Below, piece after piece: positions 9,290 through 34,487 of a DNA stretch of 38,814 bases; position 1 is the stretch's first letter, and every line of letters begins with the position of its first letter. The stretch comes from a virus. The stretch lies in the IMG/VR virus record IMGVR_UViG_3300042934_000779, positions 1-38,814 of that record; one strand, given 5' to 3'. The position numbers and the translations under genes were made by a program. Under the pieces are notes generated by a model. The model did not search any database, was not told where the DNA came from, and saw only the letters and a list, made by a program, of their open reading frames with translations.

Positions 9290-9970
9290 ATGAGATGGGA
9301 ATTAGCTACTAAAGAACAGTTATGGACCATTATTCGCACAGATGGGAAATGCCCTCTTCCTTTATTGGAAGGGGTGTTCCATGAAGCGGTAAGCAGAGGG
9401 ATGATTCAGCAATTTATATTATCGGTTATCAAAAAGAAATTCGGAATATCCGAAAATGGGCAAAAGTTATTAAAGGTAACACATGAGGATTTAATCCAAA
9501 TTGGATATGAAGGGGCACTGAAAGCCTTAAAAGCATTTGAACCAGGTAAAGGTTCACTTAGTAACTTATTATTTATTACCATTTCTCAACTATACGGACA
9601 ACACATTCAATATGTCGATGCACAAAAACGACAACGTGAAGAATTCAGCTACAATCAATTAATTTCAGAAAACGATCACAAGCAAAGAAACATGGAATTT
9701 TATTTAATTGATAAAGGAACTAATGTAGAAAAGAAGGTTATCACTAAGATTCAGCTTGAAGAGAAGTTAAGTTTGTTGAATGATATCCAAAAAGAAACTT
9801 TCCTTAGATTTTTTAAAGGTTTTACTTATGAAGAAATAGGACAACAAATGGATGCAAAGAAAACCACGGTAGCAGCACGAATGAAAACAGCTTTATGGCT
9901 TATGACGGGTAGGAATCTCAATCTTAAAGATTTAGGCATATTTGAAAGAGCAAGTTTTAAGGGGGCTTAG
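9290..9970 (+). CDS. Sigma-70-like transcription factor
   Basis: The 226-aa product resembles a small sigma factor. A region-2-like segment lies at about 62-125 (HEDLIQIGYEGALKALKAFEPGKGSL). A region-4-like helix-turn-helix is at about 160-210 (NDIQKETFLRFFKGFTYEEIGQQM). There is no clear Shine-Dalgarno site; the ATG lies 2 bp after the ssb stop, so re-initiation is likely. It could direct host RNA polymerase to middle or late promoters, or be a sigma-like relic. It is one of two sigma-like regulators here, with the ArpU-like protein at 11586. Confidence 0.75.
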   Translation: MRWELATKEQLWTIIRTDGKCPLPLLEGVFHEAVSRGMIQQFILSVIKKKFGISENGQKLLKVTHEDLIQIGYEGALKALKAFEPGKGSLSNLLFITISQLYGQHIQYVDAQKRQREEFSYNQLISENDHKQRNMEFYLIDKGTNVEKKVITKIQLEEKLSLLNDIQKETFLRFFKGFTYEEIGQQMDAKKTTVAARMKTALWLMTGRNLNLKDLGIFERASFKGA

Positions 9971-9972
9971 GG

Positions 9973-10299
9973 ATGAAACTGAATGAATATCAGGTTTACG
10001 CACAAAGAACACATAACGAAGATTTACCGCAAGTGCAAGCATTCGCAAATTATGCACTTGGATTGAATGGAGAAGCCGGGGAAGTGGCGGATCACATTAA
10101 AAAGGGTATCTTTCACGGTCACGAAATGAATCGCCATGAGTTAGCAAAAGAATTAGGTGATTGTTTATGGTACATTGCTAATCTTTCGAAGTTAGCAGGA
10201 TTCACTCTGGAAGATGTAGCTCAAATGAATGTAAATAAGTTAAAAGCTCGTTATCCAGATGGATTTGATAAAGAAAAGTCGGTGAATCGAGTTGAGTAG
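9973..10299 (+). CDS. MazG-like nucleotide pyrophosphohydrolase
   Basis: The 108-aa product has the MazG four-helix signature: GLNGEAGEVADHIKK at about 30-44 (the ExxE pair that binds Mg2+) and KELGDCLWYIANL at about 56-68 (the ExxD pair). These enzymes hydrolyse (d)NTPs to monophosphates and may clean the dNTP pool or lower ppGpp during infection. It follows the sigma-like gene by 2 bp and overlaps the next small gene by 8 bp. Confidence 0.9.
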   Translation: MKLNEYQVYAQRTHNEDLPQVQAFANYALGLNGEAGEVADHIKKGIFHGHEMNRHELAKELGDCLWYIANLSKLAGFTLEDVAQMNVNKLKARYPDGFDKEKSVNRVE

Positions 10300-10414
10300 A
10301 ATTGAGCTAATTACCGTACTGGAATTGTGGACCCGTTTTAGCTCTGAGTATTTAAACAGCTTGACCTATGAGGAATTAGAAAAGTTATACAAACAGCGAG
10401 TAACCAATGAGTAA
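10292..10414 (+). CDS. Small helical protein (40 aa)
   Basis: A TTG start overlapping the end of the MazG gene, with GGTGA 6-7 bp upstream, encodes 40 aa (MSRIELITVLELW to VTNE). It resembles the very short BH0509-like proteins of Bacillaceae, which also begin MSR and have a xLTxEELExLY segment. I am unsure of that match. It fills the gap before the DUF1064 gene and overlaps it by 8 bp. Confidence 0.6.
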   Translation: MSRIELITVLELWTRFSSEYLNSLTYEELEKLYKQRVTNE

Positions 10415-10814
10415 GTATGGCGCTAAGAAAACAGTCATAGATGGCATTACATTCGATTCTAAGACCGAGGGGCAGTATTACCTTCATTTGAAAGAAAGAC
10501 AAAGCAGAGGGGAAATATTAACGTTTCATCTACAACCAATCTTTACTCTTCAAGAAGGATTCAGAAAAGAAGGCAAACTGTATAAACCGATTCTGTACGT
10601 AGCAGATTTTGAAGTTATTCACCTAGACGAATCGACAGAAATTATTGATGTAAAAGGTTTCGAAACTCCCGATTTTAAGATTAAGAGAAAACTATTTGAA
10701 AAGAGATTCTCGCATTCTCTTACTTTGGTAAAATACGTGAAAAAATTTGGTGGTTGGATAACTGTTGATGAGTGGAAGAAACTCAAAAAAGCTGAAAAGA
10801 AGGGGTCTAAATGA
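10407..10814 (+). CDS. DUF1064-family predicted nuclease
   Basis: The 135-aa product fits DUF1064: SKYGAKKTVIDGITFDSKTEGQYY at the start (a start-side Glu), then the LQPIFTLQEGF strand, ADFEVI (the metal-binding Asp), EIIDVKG (the D-x-K pair) and the TPDFKIKRKLFE helix. The family is a phage branch of the PD-(D/E)XK nucleases related to Holliday-junction resolvases. It probably resolves branched replication or recombination intermediates before packaging. It is coupled to genes on both sides. Confidence 0.85.
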   Translation: MSKYGAKKTVIDGITFDSKTEGQYYLHLKERQSRGEILTFHLQPIFTLQEGFRKEGKLYKPILYVADFEVIHLDESTEIIDVKGFETPDFKIKRKLFEKRFSHSLTLVKYVKKFGGWITVDEWKKLKKAEKKGSK

Positions 10815-12721: not shown

Positions 12722-13146
12722 CTTTAACCGAATTACAAAAGAAGTTCTGTGATTACTACATTCAATCAGGTAATGCGACAGAAAGTTATATGAAAGCTGG
12801 ATATAAAGCTAAAGGTGATGTAGCGAGAGCAAATTCTAGTCGGTTGCTAACAAAGGCTAACGTTCGGGAATATATCCAAGAGCGTAACAAGGTACTTGAA
12901 AGCGACAGAATAGCCGATATGGAAGAGGTAAGAAGGTTTTGGACTAATACATTACGAAGCGAGGAAATGGACCCGAAACATCGTTTAAAAGCTTCTGAGT
13001 ATATTGCCAAAACAAACGGTGCTTTTATTGAGAAACAGGAAATAACAGGATCTATGAACCAAACCGTATCGGTACAAACCGATTTAAGCAAACTGTCAGT
13101 CGAGGAGTTGAAACAACTTGAATCTATCCTCTCTAAGACTCAGTGA
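12718..13146 (+). CDS. terS: Terminase small subunit
   Basis: The 142-aa product matches Terminase_2. The N-terminal helix-turn-helix begins LTELQKKFCDYYIQSGNATESYMKAGYK (residues 2-30). A helical core (HRLKASEYIAKTNGAF) and a short oligomerisation tail (LSKLSVEELKQLESIL) follow. It forms a ring that selects the packaging site and hands DNA to the large subunit. The start is GTG, with an AAGGAGG rather far upstream, so coupling with the preceding gene is likely. Confidence 0.93.
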   Translation: MTLTELQKKFCDYYIQSGNATESYMKAGYKAKGDVARANSSRLLTKANVREYIQERNKVLESDRIADMEEVRRFWTNTLRSEEMDPKHRLKASEYIAKTNGAFIEKQEITGSMNQTVSVQTDLSKLSVEELKQLESILSKTQ

Positions 13147-14503
13147 TGTGAAAAGGGAATTAGCAAGAAAGTCTTTTTGGGAATACTGCAAATTGATCGC
13201 TCCTAGTTTTTACAAAGAAGGCAGAGACTATCTGAAAACCTTCTGTAATGACTTGGAGGCTTTTTATTTTGGTGAAGATGAAGTACTCATTTGTAATATG
13301 CCTCCTAGACATGGGAAATCACGGACCGTTGGGCTATTCGCTCAATGGCTTTTTGGTGTGAATAACAAATTAAAAATCATGACAGGTTCTTATAACGAAA
13401 CCTTGTCCACTACATTTTCTAAATCGGTCCGAAATACGATTAGTGAGGCAAAAGCTGAGGAAGATAAGATTGTGTATAGTGATGTGTTTCCGTCTACTCG
13501 AATTAAACGTGGTGATGCTGCAGCGAATCTTTGGGGCTTAGAAGGTGGTCACTATAACTACTTAGCAACCTCTCCTACAGGAACTGCTACTGGATTCGGT
13601 TGTAATGTCATGATAATCGATGATGTTATTAAAAACGCTGAAGAGGCTTATAACGAAAACGTGATGGAAAAGCATTGGGATTGGTTTACGAATACGATGT
13701 TATCTCGTCTGGAAGAAGGCGGGAAAATTATCATCGTAATGACTAGGTGGGCGAGTAAGGATCTAGCAGGTCGCGCATTAGAGCATTTCAAAGAAGAAGG
13801 CAAGAAAATGAAACACGTCACGATGAAAGCACTCCAGGATAATGGGGAAATGCTTTGTGATGAAGTGTTATCGAAACAATCATACACCAGTAAGATTCGA
13901 GCAATGGGTGATGATATTGCTTCGGCTAACTATCAGCAAATACCGGTCGATGTAAAAGGTGTTTTATATAAAGAACTTAAAACCTATTCAGATATCCCTC
14001 AATTTGAAAAAATCATTGCTTATACAGATACAGCAGACGAGGGAGCAGACTTTTTATGTTCGATTGTGGCTGGAATCTATAAAGGTGAAGCCTACCTTCT
14101 GGATGTGTATTACACGAAAGATGGCATGGAGATCACGGAGATTGAGGTTGCTAAACAGTTTGTAGTGAACAATGTAAATAAAGCGCATATTGAGTCCAAT
14201 AATGGTGGACGTGGGTTTGCTCGTGCGGTTCAACGAATCTTATGGGATGTTCACGAAACAAAAGCAGTAGTCGTGAAATGGTTCCATCAAAGTCGAAATA
14301 AAATGGCTAGAATCTTAACTAACAGTTCCTATGTGATGGAGCATATATACTTTCCTGAGGATTGGCGATACAGATGGCCGGAGTTTTATAAGGCGATTAC
14401 GGAATTTCAAAGAGAAGGAAAGAACAAACATGATGATGCAGCTGACACCTTAACAGGAATTGCTGAAATAGCAAGTAAACGTGGTGTCGGAGTATTAAAG
14501 TAA
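13118..14503 (+). CDS. terL: Terminase large subunit
   Basis: The 461-aa product is a complete packaging motor and nuclease. Walker A is PPRHGKS at 62-68 and Walker B is MIIDD at 165-169. The C-terminal RNase-H-like nuclease shows YTDTADEGAD near residue 300 and KHDDAADTL near 443-451, which supply metal-binding acids. It pumps DNA into the prohead and cuts concatemers. The start is TTG with GAGGAG about 10 bp upstream, overlapping terS by 29 bp. Together with an SPP1-like portal and head genes this suggests headful (pac) packaging, which also fits the circular assembly. Confidence 0.96.
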   Translation: MNLSSLRLSDVKRELARKSFWEYCKLIAPSFYKEGRDYLKTFCNDLEAFYFGEDEVLICNMPPRHGKSRTVGLFAQWLFGVNNKLKIMTGSYNETLSTTFSKSVRNTISEAKAEEDKIVYSDVFPSTRIKRGDAAANLWGLEGGHYNYLATSPTGTATGFGCNVMIIDDVIKNAEEAYNENVMEKHWDWFTNTMLSRLEEGGKIIIVMTRWASKDLAGRALEHFKEEGKKMKHVTMKALQDNGEMLCDEVLSKQSYTSKIRAMGDDIASANYQQIPVDVKGVLYKELKTYSDIPQFEKIIAYTDTADEGADFLCSIVAGIYKGEAYLLDVYYTKDGMEITEIEVAKQFVVNNVNKAHIESNNGGRGFARAVQRILWDVHETKAVVVKWFHQSRNKMARILTNSSYVMEHIYFPEDWRYRWPEFYKAITEFQREGKNKHDDAADTLTGIAEIASKRGVGVLK

Positions 14504-26759: not shown

Positions 26760-28280
26760 ATGTCATCAAATGTAAAAACCTCAAAAACAGATGGTAACAA
26801 GTGGCGAGTGGATCAATACTACAACCCAGCAACAGGTGAGTACGAAGTTTTAGAAGGTTCAAATGGAGCAAGCAAAGTCACACTAGCTGGCAGTAATGTA
26901 GCACACAATCGTCTCTTAATCCCTGTCACAGAACCAAAGGAATTAACCATTCCAACATATGATGGTTCTGGTCAAGCGGTACACCCATCTGTAATCTTTA
27001 TATCAACCGGATTTGGAGGATATAAATGGTGGATGGCTTTTACACCATTCCCGAATTCTGACTCAAAGAAAGAAAATCCTTCTATTTTGGTGTCTGAGGA
27101 TGGGGAGGATTGGTTTGTTCCACCCGGAGTTACAAACCCACTAGTCAATGCACCAGCAGGAGACGGGAATTTCAATCGTGATCCCGAATTAGTTTGGGAT
27201 GGTACGAAACTATATTTGTATTATGGGGCTACCGTTTCAGGTTCACTCAAAACTTATCGCATGGAAAGCAGTAACGGTATCAATTGGTCTGCACCAGTAG
27301 AATTAACAAGAAGTGATACTGGTTTACCTCTAGGATTCGGATCAATGTGTGTGGGTTATTTTGGTGCAGAAGGCTGGATTATATGGGACGCATCAGTTAA
27401 TGCGGGGCAAATAAGCAGATGGACATCTACTGATGGTTTAGCTTGGAAACAAGTTGGAGCTTTATCAAGAGGCGGATTTGCAAGACACACCCTTAACGGT
27501 CATACTTTACACCTTTCACTTTTTGCTGATTCAGAAGGGTTTCATTTTCTTACATCTGCATACAGGAGAGGCGGTCAAGCAGCAGGACATAACGAATATG
27601 ACCACGGAGTGCATTATGGATTTTCAAATGATGGATTAGATATATTCTTTGACCCTACTCCAGCGATTCAACCTCAAATAACTGGATGGATGGGTGAAAA
27701 TGTTTATAAAAGTTCCATGGCACGTATTAAAGGTTCAAAATATCGTATTTACTTTTCGACAGTAAGTGATACAGGTGAATGGAGCATTGGTTTTATTGAT
27801 GTAAAATTACAACTATCTCCATTATTAGGGAATGCTATCGGAATAAAAGGGAAGCCAAGCAATCAGAAAAAAGTTGTAAGCCTAGTTACTAATGGCCAAA
27901 TTCGAGACACCACAGGAAGATTCATTAATCAAGGTGTTCTTGCTCCATCAGCTTCTAAACAATATGTGGAGGATTGGAATAATTATCAACATCATGCTTT
28001 TGTAGTACGGAACTCGCTTGACCAAGCCGTAAAGTTTAGTTTCTATTCTATGTTTGGTTCTAGATCAGACACAATAAATTATTTAAATGCAACAAAAGAT
28101 GGGTTTGATTTAGTGACATTCTCTATACCTGCAAACGGACAGTTCACACCTGTTTCTATTGACGAAAATAACATTCCGTTTCTTGGTGGCATACATTCTA
28201 ATGATATAGGTGTATGGGTTAAATGCAATACAGCACCTACAACAGGAAGTTTAGAAGTAGATCTAGTCATGTGGAATTAG
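26760..28280 (+). CDS. Receptor-binding protein with glycosidase-like beta-propeller
   Basis: The 506-aa product has a short N-terminal attachment region (1-45). A repeating propeller-like part follows (about 50-360) with blades such as NPSILVSEDGEDW, FNRDPELVWDGTKLYLYYG, YRMESSNGINWSAP and ISRWTSTDGLAW. This pattern is typical of five-bladed GH43/GH32/sialidase-like folds. The last about 100 residues form a separate beta domain (HHAFVVRNSLDQAVKFSFY to DLVMWN). It is likely the host-recognition fibre or a cell-wall glycan depolymerase. Catalytic acids cannot be assigned by eye. Confidence 0.72.
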   Translation: MSSNVKTSKTDGNKWRVDQYYNPATGEYEVLEGSNGASKVTLAGSNVAHNRLLIPVTEPKELTIPTYDGSGQAVHPSVIFISTGFGGYKWWMAFTPFPNSDSKKENPSILVSEDGEDWFVPPGVTNPLVNAPAGDGNFNRDPELVWDGTKLYLYYGATVSGSLKTYRMESSNGINWSAPVELTRSDTGLPLGFGSMCVGYFGAEGWIIWDASVNAGQISRWTSTDGLAWKQVGALSRGGFARHTLNGHTLHLSLFADSEGFHFLTSAYRRGGQAAGHNEYDHGVHYGFSNDGLDIFFDPTPAIQPQITGWMGENVYKSSMARIKGSKYRIYFSTVSDTGEWSIGFIDVKLQLSPLLGNAIGIKGKPSNQKKVVSLVTNGQIRDTTGRFINQGVLAPSASKQYVEDWNNYQHHAFVVRNSLDQAVKFSFYSMFGSRSDTINYLNATKDGFDLVTFSIPANGQFTPVSIDENNIPFLGGIHSNDIGVWVKCNTAPTTGSLEVDLVMWN

Positions 28281-28408: not shown

Positions 28409-28816
28409 ATGGAAAAGTCGTTTCAATTTTTAACAGCCCTTTTAGCTGGTTTAGTACAGTTTATTTACGGTGATTGGACCATATTATTATCAATACTACT
28501 TACATTATCCTGTATTGATTATTCAACAGGCATGGTTGCTGGATACATCGAAGGTGAATTAAAAAGCAGAATAGGGATGATTGGTATTGCCAGGAAGGTT
28601 TTTATCTTTTTAATGGTTGCTGTTGCACACCTAATAGATCTGTTACTCATTGAAAGTGGGTTAGAAACAAAAGCATTAATCATGACAATGGTAATTGTTT
28701 TCTATGCAGTCAATGAAATCCTAAGCATTACAGAAAATGCAGGTCGTATCGGTTTACCTGTACCCGAACAAATCAAAAATGCGATTGTGGTCCTAAAAGG
28801 TAAGGGTGATAAATAA
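28409..28816 (+). CDS. Holin (phage_holin_4 / toxin-secretion type)
   Basis: The 135-aa product has several hydrophobic helices (about 6-35, 60-80 and 85-110) and the family features DYSTGMVAGYIEGELKSRIGMIGIARKVF (about 35-63). The C-terminus is short and charged. Holins of this type open the membrane at a set time to release the endolysin. The next gene starts at the last base of its stop, so holin and amidase are co-translated. GGGGAGAG precedes the ATG. Confidence 0.93.
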   Translation: MEKSFQFLTALLAGLVQFIYGDWTILLSILLTLSCIDYSTGMVAGYIEGELKSRIGMIGIARKVFIFLMVAVAHLIDLLLIESGLETKALIMTMVIVFYAVNEILSITENAGRIGLPVPEQIKNAIVVLKGKGDK

Positions 28817-29903: not shown

Positions 29904-29975
29904 CATTTTATAATCATCGTAATTTGTCGTACGAAATATTAAATAGGGACTGACATTTTTTTATCGGACCCGAAT

Positions 29976-30011
29976 AAACTGTATAGCGTAGCACAGCAAG
30001 CGCAACAGTTT
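29976..30011. other. Imperfect hairpin upstream of the accessory cassette
   Basis: AAACTGT (29976-29982) pairs with ACAGTTT (30005-30011). Inside, GCG (29986-29988) can pair with CGC (30001-30003). No gene covers it. It directly precedes the terminator and the ribbon-helix-helix gene. In a conjugation-like context an oriT-type site could look like this, but nothing here proves it. Confidence 0.35.
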
Positions 30012-30014
30012 CCC

Positions 30015-30041
30015 ACCACCTGAAAAGGTGGTATTTTTTTT
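30015..30041 (+). terminator. Intrinsic terminator, left boundary of the cassette
   Basis: ACCACC (30015-30020) and GGTGGT (30027-30032) form a perfect 6-bp stem around TGAAAA, followed by A and eight T. It isolates the cassette that follows from the phage late operon. Confidence 0.85.
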
Positions 30042-30069: not shown

Positions 30070-30085
30070 GGTCATAGCGGTCATA
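30070..30085. promoter_or_regulatory. Direct repeats GGTCATA in the cassette promoter region
   Basis: GGTCATA occurs at 30070-30076 and 30079-30085, 9 bp apart, about 40 bp before the ribbon-helix-helix gene. A weak promoter (TTGGTC at 30068-30073, 16-bp spacer, GATAGT) overlaps them. Short tandem repeats are usual targets for ribbon-helix-helix dimers, so self-regulation is likely. Confidence 0.45.
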
Positions 30086-30121
30086 CCATGATAGTAGCCC
30101 AAGAGGAAGGAGATAATCACT

Positions 30122-30352
30122 ATGACAAAGAAATTCGCAAAGAGTGTGTCATTTAATGAAAAAAACGAAACTGACAAAGCCATCCTAAAACACGTCGCAA
30201 GGCGCAATTTTAGCGGATATGTAAAGAAGCTAATCTTGGAGGATATGAAGGTAAAGGAAAAGAAAATAGCTCCAGAACACAAACCACTGTCTAACGAAAA
30301 ACCGAATTCGGAGATCCGTATCAACAGTGGCAATTTAAAATTGAAGGATTAA
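30122..30352 (+). CDS. Ribbon-helix-helix protein of the accessory cassette (76 aa)
   Basis: The 76-aa product starts MTKKFAKSVSFNEKNETDKAILKHVARRNFSGYVKKLILEDM. It has a strand (KSVSFN), helix A and helix B with the NFSGYVKKLI end seen in plasmid-type ribbon-helix-helix proteins. A long basic, disordered tail follows from residue 43. Similar proteins accompany plasmid mobilisation, partition or phage FtsK-like genes in Bacillus. GGAAGGAGA precedes the ATG. It is third of its fold in this genome but differs clearly from the pair at 2902-3441. Confidence 0.78.
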   Translation: MTKKFAKSVSFNEKNETDKAILKHVARRNFSGYVKKLILEDMKVKEKKIAPEHKPLSNEKPNSEIRINSGNLKLKD

Positions 30353-30417
30353 CCAACAAAGTAATTAACAACCGTACCAATCACATAACCAATGACTACC
30401 CAGCCTAATTGAATCAT
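30349..30417 (-). CDS. Possible antisense membrane micropeptide (22 aa)
   Basis: A leftward frame of 22 aa (MIQLGWVVIGYVIGTVVNYF, then VG) is almost entirely one hydrophobic helix with G-x3-G-x3-like spacing. AAAGGTAGTGGG lies upstream of the ATG; a GTG at 30426 would give 25 aa. It overlaps the end of the ribbon-helix-helix gene by 4 bp. It resembles small type I toxins or membrane regulators in form only. Very short, so tentative. Confidence 0.4.
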   Translation of the reverse strand: MIQLGWVVIGYVIGTVVNYFVG

Positions 30418-30496
30418 TAATCCCACTACCTTTCGTAACAGTTTATTACTATCCTTTCCTTCAACTTAGAATTTATACACGAAAGGGGAAAACATC

Positions 30497-30856
30497 ATGT
30501 TTAAACGTACTGAGACAATGAATTTCAAGCGTTTTATGCAAGAAGGGGACTATATAGGTAAAAAGAATAAAGAGGTTTATACCAAGATTTCGAAGTCTGT
30601 AACAGTATATGCCATTGTCGGTACTCCAAAGTTAGTGTTTGCAGCTTCTGCCGTTGGAAATGGTGCATTTGATAAACTTTACCAAACATTCATGAACATT
30701 TTTGACGGTGGAGTTGTTTTAGCACTTGTGATTTGTGGAGGAACTTGGGCTTTTGGTTGGCGCACTCAGGCAATTGAACGAATCATTTATATTGCTGCAG
30801 GTTATGTTTTAGCTCGTCACGCTCAAGACATTCGAGACTTCTTAAAAACAATATAA
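30497..30856 (+). CDS. VirB2/pilin-like small membrane protein (119 aa)
   Basis: The 119-aa product has a basic N-terminus (1-33) and a hydrophobic segment (34-54) that ends LVFAASA, a plausible signal-peptidase site. Two further membrane helices follow, at about 71-88 (GGVVLALVICGGTWAFGW) and 95-107, separated by a short positive loop (WRTQAIER). This signal-plus-two-helices plan with a basic hairpin loop is that of VirB2/TrbC pilins. AAAGGGG precedes the ATG. It is followed at 13 bp by the M23 gene. A holin-like role is a possible alternative. Confidence 0.6.
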   Translation: MFKRTETMNFKRFMQEGDYIGKKNKEVYTKISKSVTVYAIVGTPKLVFAASAVGNGAFDKLYQTFMNIFDGGVVLALVICGGTWAFGWRTQAIERIIYIAAGYVLARHAQDIRDFLKTI

Positions 30857-30869
30857 GGTGGTGTGATGA

Positions 30870-31583
30870 ATGAAAACGGAAATTGTAGGTAACACAATGA
30901 AATTTCAAATCACCAGTTCTTATAAAGCAATGGAGAACTTTAGAGATCAACCTCACAAAGGTATCGATATTAATTTCCCGAATGGGACCGAATTACACAG
31001 TGTAATGGATGGGGTAGTCGAGAAAGTGGTTCATTTGAAGGATAACATTGGAAATGGTGTTTTTGTAAAATTCGAGGATGGAACAACAGGGATCTATGGC
31101 CATATGTCAAAGGTTACAGTCGAGGAGGGGCAGGTTGTTCATGCTGGGGATTTGCTTGGCTTTAGCGGTAATAGCGGTCATGTCGTCGGGACAAACGGAG
31201 GATATCACTTACATTTTGGATTAAAAGATTCAAATAGTGGTGATTTCTTAGACCCTACACCACTAGGTGATGCTCTTATCGGTATGAGCGATAAAGTTCA
31301 TCGAAACTTAGGTGAAAAAATGTTAGATGGTTATAACAATTTCGCGGATAAAGTTATACAAAAAGAAACAGAATGGATATTCAAACCTCTCTGGAATGGT
31401 CTTGAAAGAGCTTGCCATGATTTATTAGAGGCATTTACTTTTTATTTGCCCGATATAATGATGATAGTTACTTGTGTAGCTGCTTTATTTATCATGTTAG
31501 GACTGAGAGCACCAAAAGTATTCGCTATTTATTCAGGAGCTCTTATTGCTGCTGTTGGTTGGTTAGCGAATGCCCATAGTTAG
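30870..31583 (+). CDS. M23 peptidase with C-terminal membrane helices (237 aa)
   Basis: Residues about 15-130 form a LytM/M23 zinc endopeptidase: HKGIDI (H29, D33), YGHMS (H78), GDLLGFSGNSG, and YHLHFGL (H113, H115). These are the zinc and catalytic positions, all present. After an amphipathic region come two membrane helices (about 193-211, LPDIMMIVTCVAALFIMLG; and 216-234). There is no N-terminal signal peptide, so how the enzyme faces the wall is unclear. In conjugation systems such enzymes open peptidoglycan for the channel. It is not the phage endolysin, which lies elsewhere. Confidence 0.82.
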   Translation: MKTEIVGNTMKFQITSSYKAMENFRDQPHKGIDINFPNGTELHSVMDGVVEKVVHLKDNIGNGVFVKFEDGTTGIYGHMSKVTVEEGQVVHAGDLLGFSGNSGHVVGTNGGYHLHFGLKDSNSGDFLDPTPLGDALIGMSDKVHRNLGEKMLDGYNNFADKVIQKETEWIFKPLWNGLERACHDLLEAFTFYLPDIMMIVTCVAALFIMLGLRAPKVFAIYSGALIAAVGWLANAHS

Positions 31584-31595
31584 GAGGGAATAAGT

Positions 31596-34271
31596 ATGAG
31601 CAAACCAAAATCGATAAAATGGAATCAATTTTTCCGGATGAATGTTAATCAATATAAAACTTATCAAATGATTCCTCACTTAAATATGTCAAACGCTCAG
31701 AATCGGCACCTGTGGAACGCAATGCACAAAGCCTATGAGTTGTATCATTCCATTCCTTCTCGCTTAGATTGGAAGTTTAAAGATGGGTTTAAAGTATCAT
31801 TTAGACCAAAAGATATTATCTGGTTTGATATGGTCCTCCGAAATACCAAGGAAGATGGAAAAAGAGTCGAGTTTTATTTTACTACATCGGAAACCATGGC
31901 AGACAAAATGAAAAACATTTTAGAAAACAAATGGAATGTATCGGTAAAAGAGGTAAAATCTAATCAATTAAAAGTGAGTGAAAAGAATACCGATATTTAT
32001 GAAATGAAATACATGCACCATGATGTATTTAGCTTAAATACCAATCACCAACATCAAACTACACCGATTGGATCATTACTTCATTCGCTAGAAGAATTAG
32101 AGGAGGGAGATTTTGCGCGAATCAGTATTTGTAATGAAAGAGAAAACCGTAAGAAATGGCTTGGGACTTCGGCTTGGGCTTTAAAGCGATTAGGTAAGGG
32201 GCAAGTGCCGAAACGTCCAAATGCAAGCGGTAAACAACTCATTAGTGCTTTTAGTAAAGTATTTGTCTCCATAGCAAACGAAGTAATTAAACTACTCCAG
32301 GACATTTTGAATGCCTTTAATAATGTCTTTTCTCCTAACAATAAATCCTTCGACCAAAAACTAATCGAAAACAAAAATGAACTCAAAGACGAATTAAAAA
32401 CCTTGAAAGTATCAGATCGCACACGAGAAAAAGCCAATGCAAGTGTATGGCGGTCACATATTCGAGTAGCTGTACACAGCGAAAAGAAATTTAATCGAGA
32501 TAATGTCAGTAACATTCTCACTAGTGCTTATGGAGAACTAGCTGAAAACAATGAATTTAAAGTGGTTAAAGTCTGGTTTAACGGAATTAACATTTCCTTT
32601 AAAGGAATGAACATTAAAGTTGGATCACGTAAGCAGGAAATCATTAAAGAATTAAATACCTTTGAATTATCTAAGAAAACAAAAACGGATATCAATCCTA
32701 ATTTAGTCTCTTGTGATGAATTAGGAAGGATTATTCAATTACCTACGGCAGAACTTCAAAGACGTTATGAAGATGCCATAAATGCTAATAAAAAAATAGA
32801 GACAGATATTTCTAGTGTCTTTATTTATAAACCTAGTGAAGAATTTGTGGAGATAGATGATATCAAAATTAGTATTGGAAGTAACAACCTTTCCATGGAC
32901 GGAAAAAAATTAAAAACAACGTCCAAAAAAGAAAAATCCATCTTAGTGGGTCATAGTGAGCAGAAAAGCGCATCCGTGCCGATTGGAATTCCGGTTAGTA
33001 ATCCAAATGAGTTTTTTAAAGGTTATGTGTACTTGGGGGGAATGGGAGCTGGCAAAGATACAGCGATTCAAAATTTTGTGACCGAAGCTTCTTTACATCA
33101 AAACATATCTTTTGTTGTCATTGACCAGGTAAATAAGGAAGGTTTGGAAGGCATGGCAAACGGTATTCGTGATAGTTTACCTCCTGAAAAGATTATTGAT
33201 ATCGATTTATCGGATGAAAATTATTTACCGCCTCTGGATCTAACAGAAGTCATGCAGAAAATTGGTCGAAAAGGATTAGACCGATTTGCCAATGAACTAA
33301 TAGACTTTTTCGGGGATATGGAGTCGATGGGGCAAAGCAGAAAGATATTAAGGGACTTTGCAAAGGCTTCAAACGGCAGTCTATACAACATTAAAAGACT
33401 ACTGGAAGAAGAGGAATTTAGAGCCGAAACGGTAAAACGATTGCAAAGTGAAAATAACGGAAGGTTAGCTCAAGAAATAGAGAAGTATTTAAGTGAATAT
33501 GGCGAAAAGAAAGGCGAAATAGTGGTAGTAAAGGATGGTCAAAAGTCCTTAGATAATAAAGCTTCGGCCATTCTTAATCGTTTAGATGAATTTTTCGGAG
33601 ATTCCACCTTATTTGAGATTTTCGCACAACCACCGAAAAAAGAATTGAATTTCGAACAATGGATGAAGGAAGGCAAAGTTATTATTTTTAGAGTGCCGGA
33701 CCGTATATTATCCACTGTAGCGGTAAGAACATTAGTCCATTGGATCACATTGAAAGTATTAATGACGAGGCTGTTAATGTCTACTGAGGACCAATCCAAT
33801 GGAACCTTTATGATATTCAATGAACCACAAACGTACTTGGAAGGAAATAAAGGTTTAGCGAAATTATTATCGAGAATAGCGGTTCAAGGTAGAAAGGAAA
33901 GATTAGGCAGCATATTCGCCTGTCATCATCTTGGTCAGATTAAGGAAATTGAAGAGGATTTAATTTCTGGTGGTGTTCATTGGATGTTATTTAAAAACGA
34001 CAATGAGGATACCTTCAAGCGGTTAGAGAAGCAATTAAATCCGATTGATGTAGAAACAGCTTTAAATATTCCTAACACCAAAACCACTCGTCATGCTATT
34101 TGTATCTTGAACTTTGGAGGGGAGCGCAAACCTGCCTTTATGATCCAAATGTTAAAACCAAGTTATGAAAGATACAAACCATACGATAATTCATTTTTAA
34201 CGAAACGACATTCTCAAATGTTTGGAAGAAGTTATAGTGAAATTGAAACCATGTTAGCTACTGGCACATAG
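31596..34271 (+). CDS. HerA/FtsK/VirD4-class ATPase (891 aa)
   Basis: The C-terminal motor begins with Walker A GGMGAGKDT near residues 481-489. A VVIDQVNKEG strand and a Walker B-like GTFMIFNEP near 735-743 follow, with Asn in place of the usual Asp before the Glu. A GRKERLGSIFACHHLGQI motif then fits the T4SS coupling-protein/VirB4-like branch of the superfamily. The N-terminal 450 residues lack strong membrane helices; they include YFTTSETMADKMKNILENKW and a coiled region near 260-290. AGGAGGG precedes the ATG. Likely role: pump DNA or protein together with the two preceding membrane proteins. It is larger than the usual phage FtsK-like proteins. Confidence 0.75.
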   Translation: MSKPKSIKWNQFFRMNVNQYKTYQMIPHLNMSNAQNRHLWNAMHKAYELYHSIPSRLDWKFKDGFKVSFRPKDIIWFDMVLRNTKEDGKRVEFYFTTSETMADKMKNILENKWNVSVKEVKSNQLKVSEKNTDIYEMKYMHHDVFSLNTNHQHQTTPIGSLLHSLEELEEGDFARISICNERENRKKWLGTSAWALKRLGKGQVPKRPNASGKQLISAFSKVFVSIANEVIKLLQDILNAFNNVFSPNNKSFDQKLIENKNELKDELKTLKVSDRTREKANASVWRSHIRVAVHSEKKFNRDNVSNILTSAYGELAENNEFKVVKVWFNGINISFKGMNIKVGSRKQEIIKELNTFELSKKTKTDINPNLVSCDELGRIIQLPTAELQRRYEDAINANKKIETDISSVFIYKPSEEFVEIDDIKISIGSNNLSMDGKKLKTTSKKEKSILVGHSEQKSASVPIGIPVSNPNEFFKGYVYLGGMGAGKDTAIQNFVTEASLHQNISFVVIDQVNKEGLEGMANGIRDSLPPEKIIDIDLSDENYLPPLDLTEVMQKIGRKGLDRFANELIDFFGDMESMGQSRKILRDFAKASNGSLYNIKRLLEEEEFRAETVKRLQSENNGRLAQEIEKYLSEYGEKKGEIVVVKDGQKSLDNKASAILNRLDEFFGDSTLFEIFAQPPKKELNFEQWMKEGKVIIFRVPDRILSTVAVRTLVHWITLKVLMTRLLMSTEDQSNGTFMIFNEPQTYLEGNKGLAKLLSRIAVQGRKERLGSIFACHHLGQIKEIEEDLISGGVHWMLFKNDNEDTFKRLEKQLNPIDVETALNIPNTKTTRHAICILNFGGERKPAFMIQMLKPSYERYKPYDNSFLTKRHSQMFGRSYSEIETMLATGT

Positions 34272-34315
34272 GGGCATACCCTACGTGCCTTTCGGGGTAA
34301 AAGGAGGAATGCTAC

Positions 34316-34474
34316 ATGCGTCCAGTAGTCATTGAAATGGTAAAAGGTAAACCTGTTGTGGTCAGCTGCCCGAAAAAGGTTCAGGTGATTTTTCGTGAAC
34401 CTAAAAAACGGACTTTTAAAAAGCGGATCAAGACGATGGTTTATCAAATGAAATCTATTATGGGCATCCAATAG
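34316..34474 (+). CDS. Small basic protein (52 aa)
   Basis: AAAGGAGGAA lies before the ATG. The 52-aa product (MRPVVIEMVKGKPVVVSCP, then VIFREPKKRTFKKRIKTMVY) has a hydrophobic N-half and a strongly basic C-half. It could bind nucleic acid or acidic lipids. It is the last gene before the right-hand terminator of the cassette, whose stem begins in its 3' end. Confidence 0.65.
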   Translation: MRPVVIEMVKGKPVVVSCPKKVQVIFREPKKRTFKKRIKTMVYQMKSIMGIQ

Positions 34475-34487
34475 GATGTCTTTTTTT
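34463..34487 (+). terminator. Intrinsic terminator, right boundary of the cassette
   Basis: GGCATCC (34463-34469) pairs with GGATGTC (34474-34480), one G-U pair, AATA loop, then seven T. With the terminator at 30015-30041 it encloses the cassette as one transcription unit. Confidence 0.88.

Follow-up and report, generated by a model that had tools for sequence, protein, structure and literature searches.

A VirB2/VirB4-like membrane module with a putative forespore-type antisense micropeptide gene in phages of endospore-forming bacteria

Gp32 of phage SPP1, with gp31.1 and/or gp31.2, was proposed in 2018 to form a transmembrane translocon; the same study saw expression early from PE5 and synteny with phage GBK2, recorded HHPred matches to TrwB, VirB4 and FtsK, and found open reading frames (ORFs) 31.2 and 32 dispensable for lytic growth (PMC6316719). 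The Bacillus pumilus phages Novomoskovsk and Bolokhovo carry TrbC/VIRB2, Replic_Relax, FtsK/SpoIIIE and ribbon-helix-helix (RHH) genes that were read as plasmid-segregation relics (PMC9658697). Here we analyze a unit of this kind in the IMG/VR virus record IMGVR_UViG_3300042934_000779, whose full 38,814 bp we call the window. The unit lies between the lysis genes and the integrase and encodes an RHH protein, a VirB2-like membrane protein, an M23 peptidase joined to a two-helix membrane domain, a VirB4-like ATPase and a small basic protein. An earlier interpretation made without database searches (the sequence-only reading) took this to be an undescribed set, but in light of the SPP1 and Novomoskovsk/Bolokhovo descriptions the gene set itself is not new. 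Missing from that inventory was an antisense micro-ORF at 30417–30349 on the minus strand, and this putative micropeptide gene with a forespore-type promoter appears, as judged from sequence, to be a new element of the module.

The five ORFs named by the sequence-only reading are all present and intact, and the first four follow the order of gp31, gp31.1, gp31.2 and gp32 in SPP1, and of their counterparts in GBK2, with homologous RHH, VirB2-like, two-helix and ATPase proteins. The window differs from SPP1 and GBK2 in the fusion of an M23 domain to the gp31.2-like protein, in belonging to a serine-integrase phage and in having its own flanking terminators, and the antisense micropeptide was not among the features of the SPP1/GBK2 module that we saw in print. 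Novomoskovsk and Bolokhovo likewise combine RHH, VirB2 and ATPase genes as the window does, whereas their Replic_Relax gene has no counterpart in it.

The 891-aa ATPase (31596–34271, plus strand) belongs to the SPP1 gp32 family, matches phrog_5156 at 1e-197 and has the Walker A sequence GGMGAGKD beginning at residue 481, as had been noted, together with a Walker-B-like FMIFNEP at 738 and GRKER at 765. It matched no Pfam family, VirB4 included, and 60 relatives searched against Pfam returned weak, scattered matches only. We compared an AlphaFold (AF2) model built from a 60-sequence alignment (mean predicted local distance difference test score, pLDDT, 88.7) with the Protein Data Bank (PDB) using Foldseek. 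R388 VirB4/TrwK ranked first (E 2e-12, ~950 alignment columns, which take in the N-terminal half); HerA proteins and VirD4/TrwB came next (E 2e-9, ~460–525 columns). TM-scores of the VirB4 matches were ~0.3 with a root-mean-square deviation near 15, so the term VirB4-like refers to local structural alignment and E-value; we read the low TM-scores as probably reflecting a different domain orientation in the model. A sequence profile of the ATPase gave weak matches to TdpA and HerA in the PDB. The proposed HerA/FtsK/VirD4 class thus stands as to its secretion-system character, while the nearest modeled fold is VirB4/TrwK, ahead of HerA and VirD4/TrwB, and the protein is best described as VirB4-type by predicted fold only. 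A packaging ATPase or standard FtsK protein was rejected on the absence of a Pfam match and on the position of the terminase elsewhere, at 13118–14503. Since the closest structural relatives are VirB4/TrwK, the layout resembles virB2-virB3-virB4, and R388 TrwL-TrwM-TrwK (VirB2-VirB3-VirB4; 101, 104 and 823 aa) has the same order and similar sizes.

Likeness to a type IV secretion system (T4SS) consists in this VirB4-like fold over nearly the full ATPase and in the TrbC/VirB2 similarity of the 119-aa membrane protein (30497–30856, plus strand). The latter matches Pfam TrbC/VirB2 at 1.3e-5 and 25.7 bits, just below the 27.9 cut-off, and 22 of its 42 relatives match TrbC and 8 of 42 match T4SS_pilin at E<=0.01, in agreement with its earlier description as VirB2-like. 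Its model contains three helices with a hairpin region at pLDDT ~95 and gave no significant Foldseek match. The protein matches no holin family, and a holin is encoded separately at 28409–28816.

The 237-aa protein (30870–31583, plus strand) combines an M23 endopeptidase domain (~residues 28–120; PF01551, 9e-22) with a C-terminal two-helix membrane domain. The metal-ligand motifs HxxxD and HxH are kept as HKGID (29) and HLH (113), so the M23 assignment made earlier holds and the enzyme is predicted to be of the active type. The protein has no obvious N-terminal signal, and the basic loop between the two C-terminal helices suggests that the M23 domain would lie outside the cell. SPP1 gp31.2 and GBK2 GBK2_31, both without M23, are homologues of the two-helix domain, and because this domain stands alone in M23-less phages the M23 domain is optional. 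The two-helix domain occupies the VirB3 position and had no Pfam VirB3/PrgI match, although a PF12666 (VirB3) search found no match anywhere, control genomes included; one relative matches TrbC at 1.1e-4. The domain showed no similarity to the VirB2-like profile, and the idea that the two membrane proteins are mutual duplicates was dropped at an hhalign probability of 1.7.

The 76-aa RHH protein (30122–30352, plus strand) is ParR/CopG-like and matches phrog_17574 at 1.3e-20. Actin-like ParM (PF17989) occurs in 17 of 50 whole records, where its gene mostly ends inside the RHH start; given this overlap, the RHH protein is likely a ParR-like adaptor in those phages. ParM PF17989 was not found in the window record. 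In loci L049, L052 and L077 the ParM gene lies 3′ of the ATPase rather than 5′, with a ParM-RHH pair in L049 and L077, a placement suggesting that the partition cassette moves independently.

Relative to the R388 T4SS, the window has one ATPase only, a candidate VirB3 counterpart judged by position and its two helices, and no recognized VirB6, VirB8, VirD4 or relaxase. The window record contains no match to the relaxase families PF13814, PF03432 or PF02486, bearing out the reported lack of a relaxase for these families, and VirB6 and VirB8 were unmatched in a Pfam scan of the module ORFs and selected other window ORFs, with no search dedicated to them. None of the 50 records searched whole matches PF03432 or PF02486, and PF13814, a MOBC relaxase family (PMC5357655), is clear in SPO1 alone, so a relaxase of these families was rejected as a general part of the module. 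In SPO1 (L019), the Replic_Relax gene of this family (gp27.3, 9639–10463) lies directly beside the VirB4-like ATPase, with actin-like ParM gp27.9 nearby. Export of DNA by lysogens, put forward in the sequence-only reading, is weakened as a general role because the module occurs in the obligately lytic phages SPP1 and SPO1 and in most cases comes without a relaxase.

A profile-guided scan of IMG/VR supplied the relatives, with SPP1 read through locus L057, which has SPP1-like content. Of 56 non-redundant loci whose upstream sequence was long enough, 53 carry the VirB2-like gene according to iterated profiles, 49 the RHH gene (first in the module), 35 the two-helix domain and 19 M23; nearly all 56 loci show synteny. 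The order RHH/VirB2/two-helix/ATPase is kept among phages down to ~20% ATPase identity, so the arrangement is widespread and exceeds what chance would give. The small-protein profiles matched none of 5,341 ORFs away from the ATPase, so profile drift does not account for the matches.

The gap between the RHH and VirB2-like genes contains a conserved element on the opposite strand. In the window this is a predicted 22-aa product, MIQLGWVVIGYVIGTVVNYFVG, with one predicted membrane helix, encoded tail-to-tail with the RHH gene behind a weak Shine-Dalgarno sequence. Under a strict test (ATG, Shine-Dalgarno, 15–32 aa, hydrophobic stretch), 39 of 47 loci have such an ORF on the minus strand of the gap and none of the 47 has one on the plus strand, compared with a background of 0.4% in shuffles and 0.1% elsewhere in the same loci. 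The predicted micropeptides of the family are 17–30 aa membrane peptides with a Gly-zipper, exemplified by MFIAALIVGYGIGLAVNSLVG in GBK2 and MHFFISLLIGYIVGVLV in SPP1; their stop codon usually lies within the 3′ end of the RHH gene, with an overlap of 4–20 nt, and codon differences between relatives are mostly synonymous (GBK2 against L049: 12 synonymous and 2 replacement, of 21). No feature is annotated on this strand in GBK2, Ray17, 049ML001, TP-84, Stahl, D6E or MaeS.

The micropeptide leaders carry GHATA, a spacer and GGNNANAHTR, which is the consensus for sigmaF. The leader motif agrees with the csfB promoter boxes GTATA and GGGGAGGCTA (PMC4383634), and the usual spacing is 15 nt, with 14 nt in PsigG (PMC5942855). 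Scored as a count of consensus positions rather than with a trained matrix, sigmaF-like sites with at least 11 of 12 positions occur in 27 of 39 leaders, compared with 1.6% in shuffles and 1.8% at other places; sites of the sigmaG type show a comparable enrichment and sigmaA sites show none. When spacers of 5–30 nt were allowed, 25 of 31 good sites had 14 or 15 nt, in line with the published spacing. In the window, the promoter-like site (30450–30478, minus strand) has a −35 box GTATA, a 14-nt spacer and a −10 box GGAAAGGATA, matches 11 of 12 positions and lies at the commonest distance from the ATG, 32 nt upstream of it. The micropeptide gene is thus predicted to carry a sigmaF/sigmaG promoter with the correct spacing. 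A joint scan for peptide and promoter picked out 48 of 61 loci for the minus strand and 1 of 61 for the plus strand; across the 38.8 kb of the window, adding the forespore-promoter requirement leaves this ORF as the sole candidate. Because the loci share ancestry these counts are not independent, and a fairer figure is that 11 of the 17 clusters formed at 50% ATPase identity have both peptide and promoter. The peptide criteria and the promoter motif were set after some loci had been viewed, for which the controls (other strand, other places, shuffles) are a partial remedy.

The host range of the module points in the same direction as this promoter. Searches by tblastn with five diverse ATPases (from the window, TP-84, SPO1, a Terrisporobacter phage and L058) matched phages of Bacillus, Geobacillus, Lysinibacillus, Brevibacillus, Alicyclobacillus and Terrisporobacter only, plus D6E and one Microcystis-labeled phage. 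As controls in the same search, the window terminase reached 91 genus names and the L058 DNA polymerase 103, including Lactococcus, Streptococcus and Staphylococcus. One doubtful record apart, the ATPase family is confined to phages of endospore-formers; a few plasmids, mostly in spore-formers, also carry it. Phages of the L058 type lack the micropeptide, and their polymerase is closest to those of Paenibacillus phages. The Microcystis-labeled record, MaeS (L024, MT362618), has module proteins and a peptide like those of the Bacillus megaterium phages Slash and Stahl and a forespore-type promoter matching 12 of 12 positions, so its recorded cyanobacterial host looks doubtful.

The gene identities, the synteny, the host restriction, the VirB4-like fold and the conservation of micropeptide and promoter are computed results; from them we infer a DNA substrate, action during sporulation, a direction of transport and a role for the peptide. 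The explanation we favor, at a probability of roughly 40%, is that the unit is a phage VirB2/VirB4-like membrane DNA translocase that works in the sporulating host and most plausibly moves or holds phage DNA in the forespore, giving a "virospore". Action in a sporulating host is suggested by the confinement of the module to endospore-former phages and by the forespore-type promoter of the micropeptide, and a link to DNA by the frequency of RHH (49/56 loci) and ParM (17/50 records) genes; the dispensability of SPP1 31.2 and 32 in lytic growth also counts in its favor. In such a relaxase-less translocase, with VirB2, VirB3-position and VirB4-like parts, the RHH protein would tie phage DNA to the complex, the two small membrane proteins would form a channel or base, the VirB4-like ATPase would power transport and the optional M23 domain would trim peptidoglycan. 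The machine would bring phage DNA into the forespore, to or across its membrane, or keep it there, with the result that the spore carries the phage genome. SigmaF or sigmaG would then turn on the antisense micropeptide gene on phage DNA in the forespore, in effect sensing its arrival, and the peptide might act from within the forespore on the membrane complex, completing or stopping it, and/or antisense transcription might silence the RHH operon. A narrower form, in which a dedicated endospore-entry machine derived from VirB2/VirB4 and tethered through RHH (sometimes ParM) proteins pumps or holds the DNA of lytic and temperate phages alike and is completed or stopped by the micropeptide, is tentative and somewhat unlikely. 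The entrapment of phage genomes in spores is itself an established phenomenon and a described phage strategy (PMC9429907), and phi29 entrapment, cited there, has the same proposed outcome, a lytic phage genome carried in the spore.

Several points weigh against a translocase dedicated to sporulating cells. Its support comes from sequence and model computation; forespore promoters are not enriched 5′ of the RHH, VirB2 or ATPase genes; the protein genes of SPP1 lie in an early operon (PMC6316719); and the promoter of SPP1's own micropeptide is weak, at 9 of 12 positions. SPO1 has no convincing micropeptide, and MaeS has one despite its recorded host, Microcystis, which does not form spores. A temperate phage has less need of such a machine, since a prophage reaches the forespore as part of the chromosome in any case, and a sigma-like factor encoded in the window (9290–9970) could read the promoter instead of host sigmaF. 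The lack of a forespore promoter on the operon itself and its early transcription in vegetative SPP1 infection (PMC6316719) would suit the main rival, in which the translocase serves vegetative infection, through membrane DNA handling, exclusion or secretion, and the forespore antisense transcript and micropeptide only shut it off, so that a damaging pump or hydrolase would not harm the spore or the phage genome lying dormant. The antisense, tail-to-tail arrangement with its usual 4–20 nt overlap also fits a switch of this sort, but a switch alone leaves the confinement of the whole translocase to spore-former phages unexplained, and we consider it unlikely, though the strongest of the alternatives. 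Both explanations expect a SigF/SigG-dependent peptide; they differ on whether loss of the translocase would lower entrapment.

Early expression and dispensability in SPP1, where exclusion is among the early-gene roles suggested by the authors (PMC6316719), could also indicate a complex that blocks competing phage DNA or exports or neutralizes something in infected cells, and membrane proteins with a HerA-class ATPase, a class also found in defense systems, would suit that role. Such an anti-superinfection or anti-defense complex is improbable, as it leaves the spore-former confinement, the forespore-type promoter and the RHH and ParM links unexplained. Marginally less probable still is a micropeptide that acts as a small toxin and aborts sporulation so that the infected cell lyses rather than becoming dormant, the translocase being unrelated: a short hydrophobic Gly-rich helix under a forespore-type promoter is compatible with this, as are phage sigma factors reported to disrupt sporulation (PMC9429907), but peptide and translocase are strictly linked in 11 of 17 ATPase clusters, which points to a common function. 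The least probable explanation we consider is conjugation-like transfer of the phage genome from cell to cell, for which VirB2/VirB4 kinship, the wall hydrolase and the SPO1 Replic_Relax gene adjoining the ATPase would speak; PF13814, PF03432 and PF02486 are unmatched in the window and nearly all relatives, no separate coupling protein was recognized, and the module occurs in lytic phages.

The module is set in a record that encodes single-stranded-DNA-annealing, DnaD, DnaB, terminase, portal, capsid and tail proteins as well as a holin, a serine integrase and a Cro/CI-type regulator. Terminators had been proposed on both sides of the unit, and hairpin-like sites do exist at 30015–30032 (followed by a T-run) and 34462–34481 on the plus strand; in total the hairpin scan shows no excess over shuffles (8 observed against 6.1±2.6), and conservation in relatives is better support for the first terminator than the scan. 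This first site closes a conserved upstream element (29953–30041, plus strand) with an ACAT(GCAT)-N-CATA-like motif; GCATnTTTT-N-GCCGCATA, hairpin and terminator occur at the same place in 12 relatives, including L042, L057, L034, L049 and L058. The element had no match in an Rfam search, and in some relatives it resembles a sigmaE-type promoter or a small RNA or centromere-like site, as a candidate only. SigmaE-type promoters are enriched 5′ of the RHH operon (26% against 2.8% at at least 12 of 14 positions), but we do not claim one because the site overlaps the conserved hairpin element and the relatives are not independent. Just before the RHH gene, at 30072–30110, a CATACC / GTCATA motif is repeated, as it is 5′ of RHH in L034, L049 and L048; the repeats might serve the RHH protein as operator or centromere. 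At the other end, the small basic protein (34316–34474, plus strand, 52 aa) appears accessory; it has a clear match in only one tested relative, L070 (4e-12), and a conserved role is unsupported. Elsewhere in the window, 9290–9970 encodes a sigma-70-like factor (superfamily TIGR02937, 4.7e-14) that among specific models is weakly closest to SigY and the SigB/F/G group, and 26760–28280 encodes a 506-aa protein of the tail region that weakly matches glycosyl hydrolase family 32 (2.4e-4).

How phage genomes enter spores is an old question for which the phi29 mechanism, described as using host ParABS/Spo0J sites, is usually cited. The module described here would provide a concrete and widespread candidate for spore entry, present in the model phages SPP1, GBK2 and TP-84 and their relatives, and predicts expression of the micropeptide under SigF/SigG. 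It may also represent the reduction of T4SS parts to a minimal membrane translocase in phages, accompanied by an ultrasmall gene that annotation seems to have overlooked in the well-studied phages checked.

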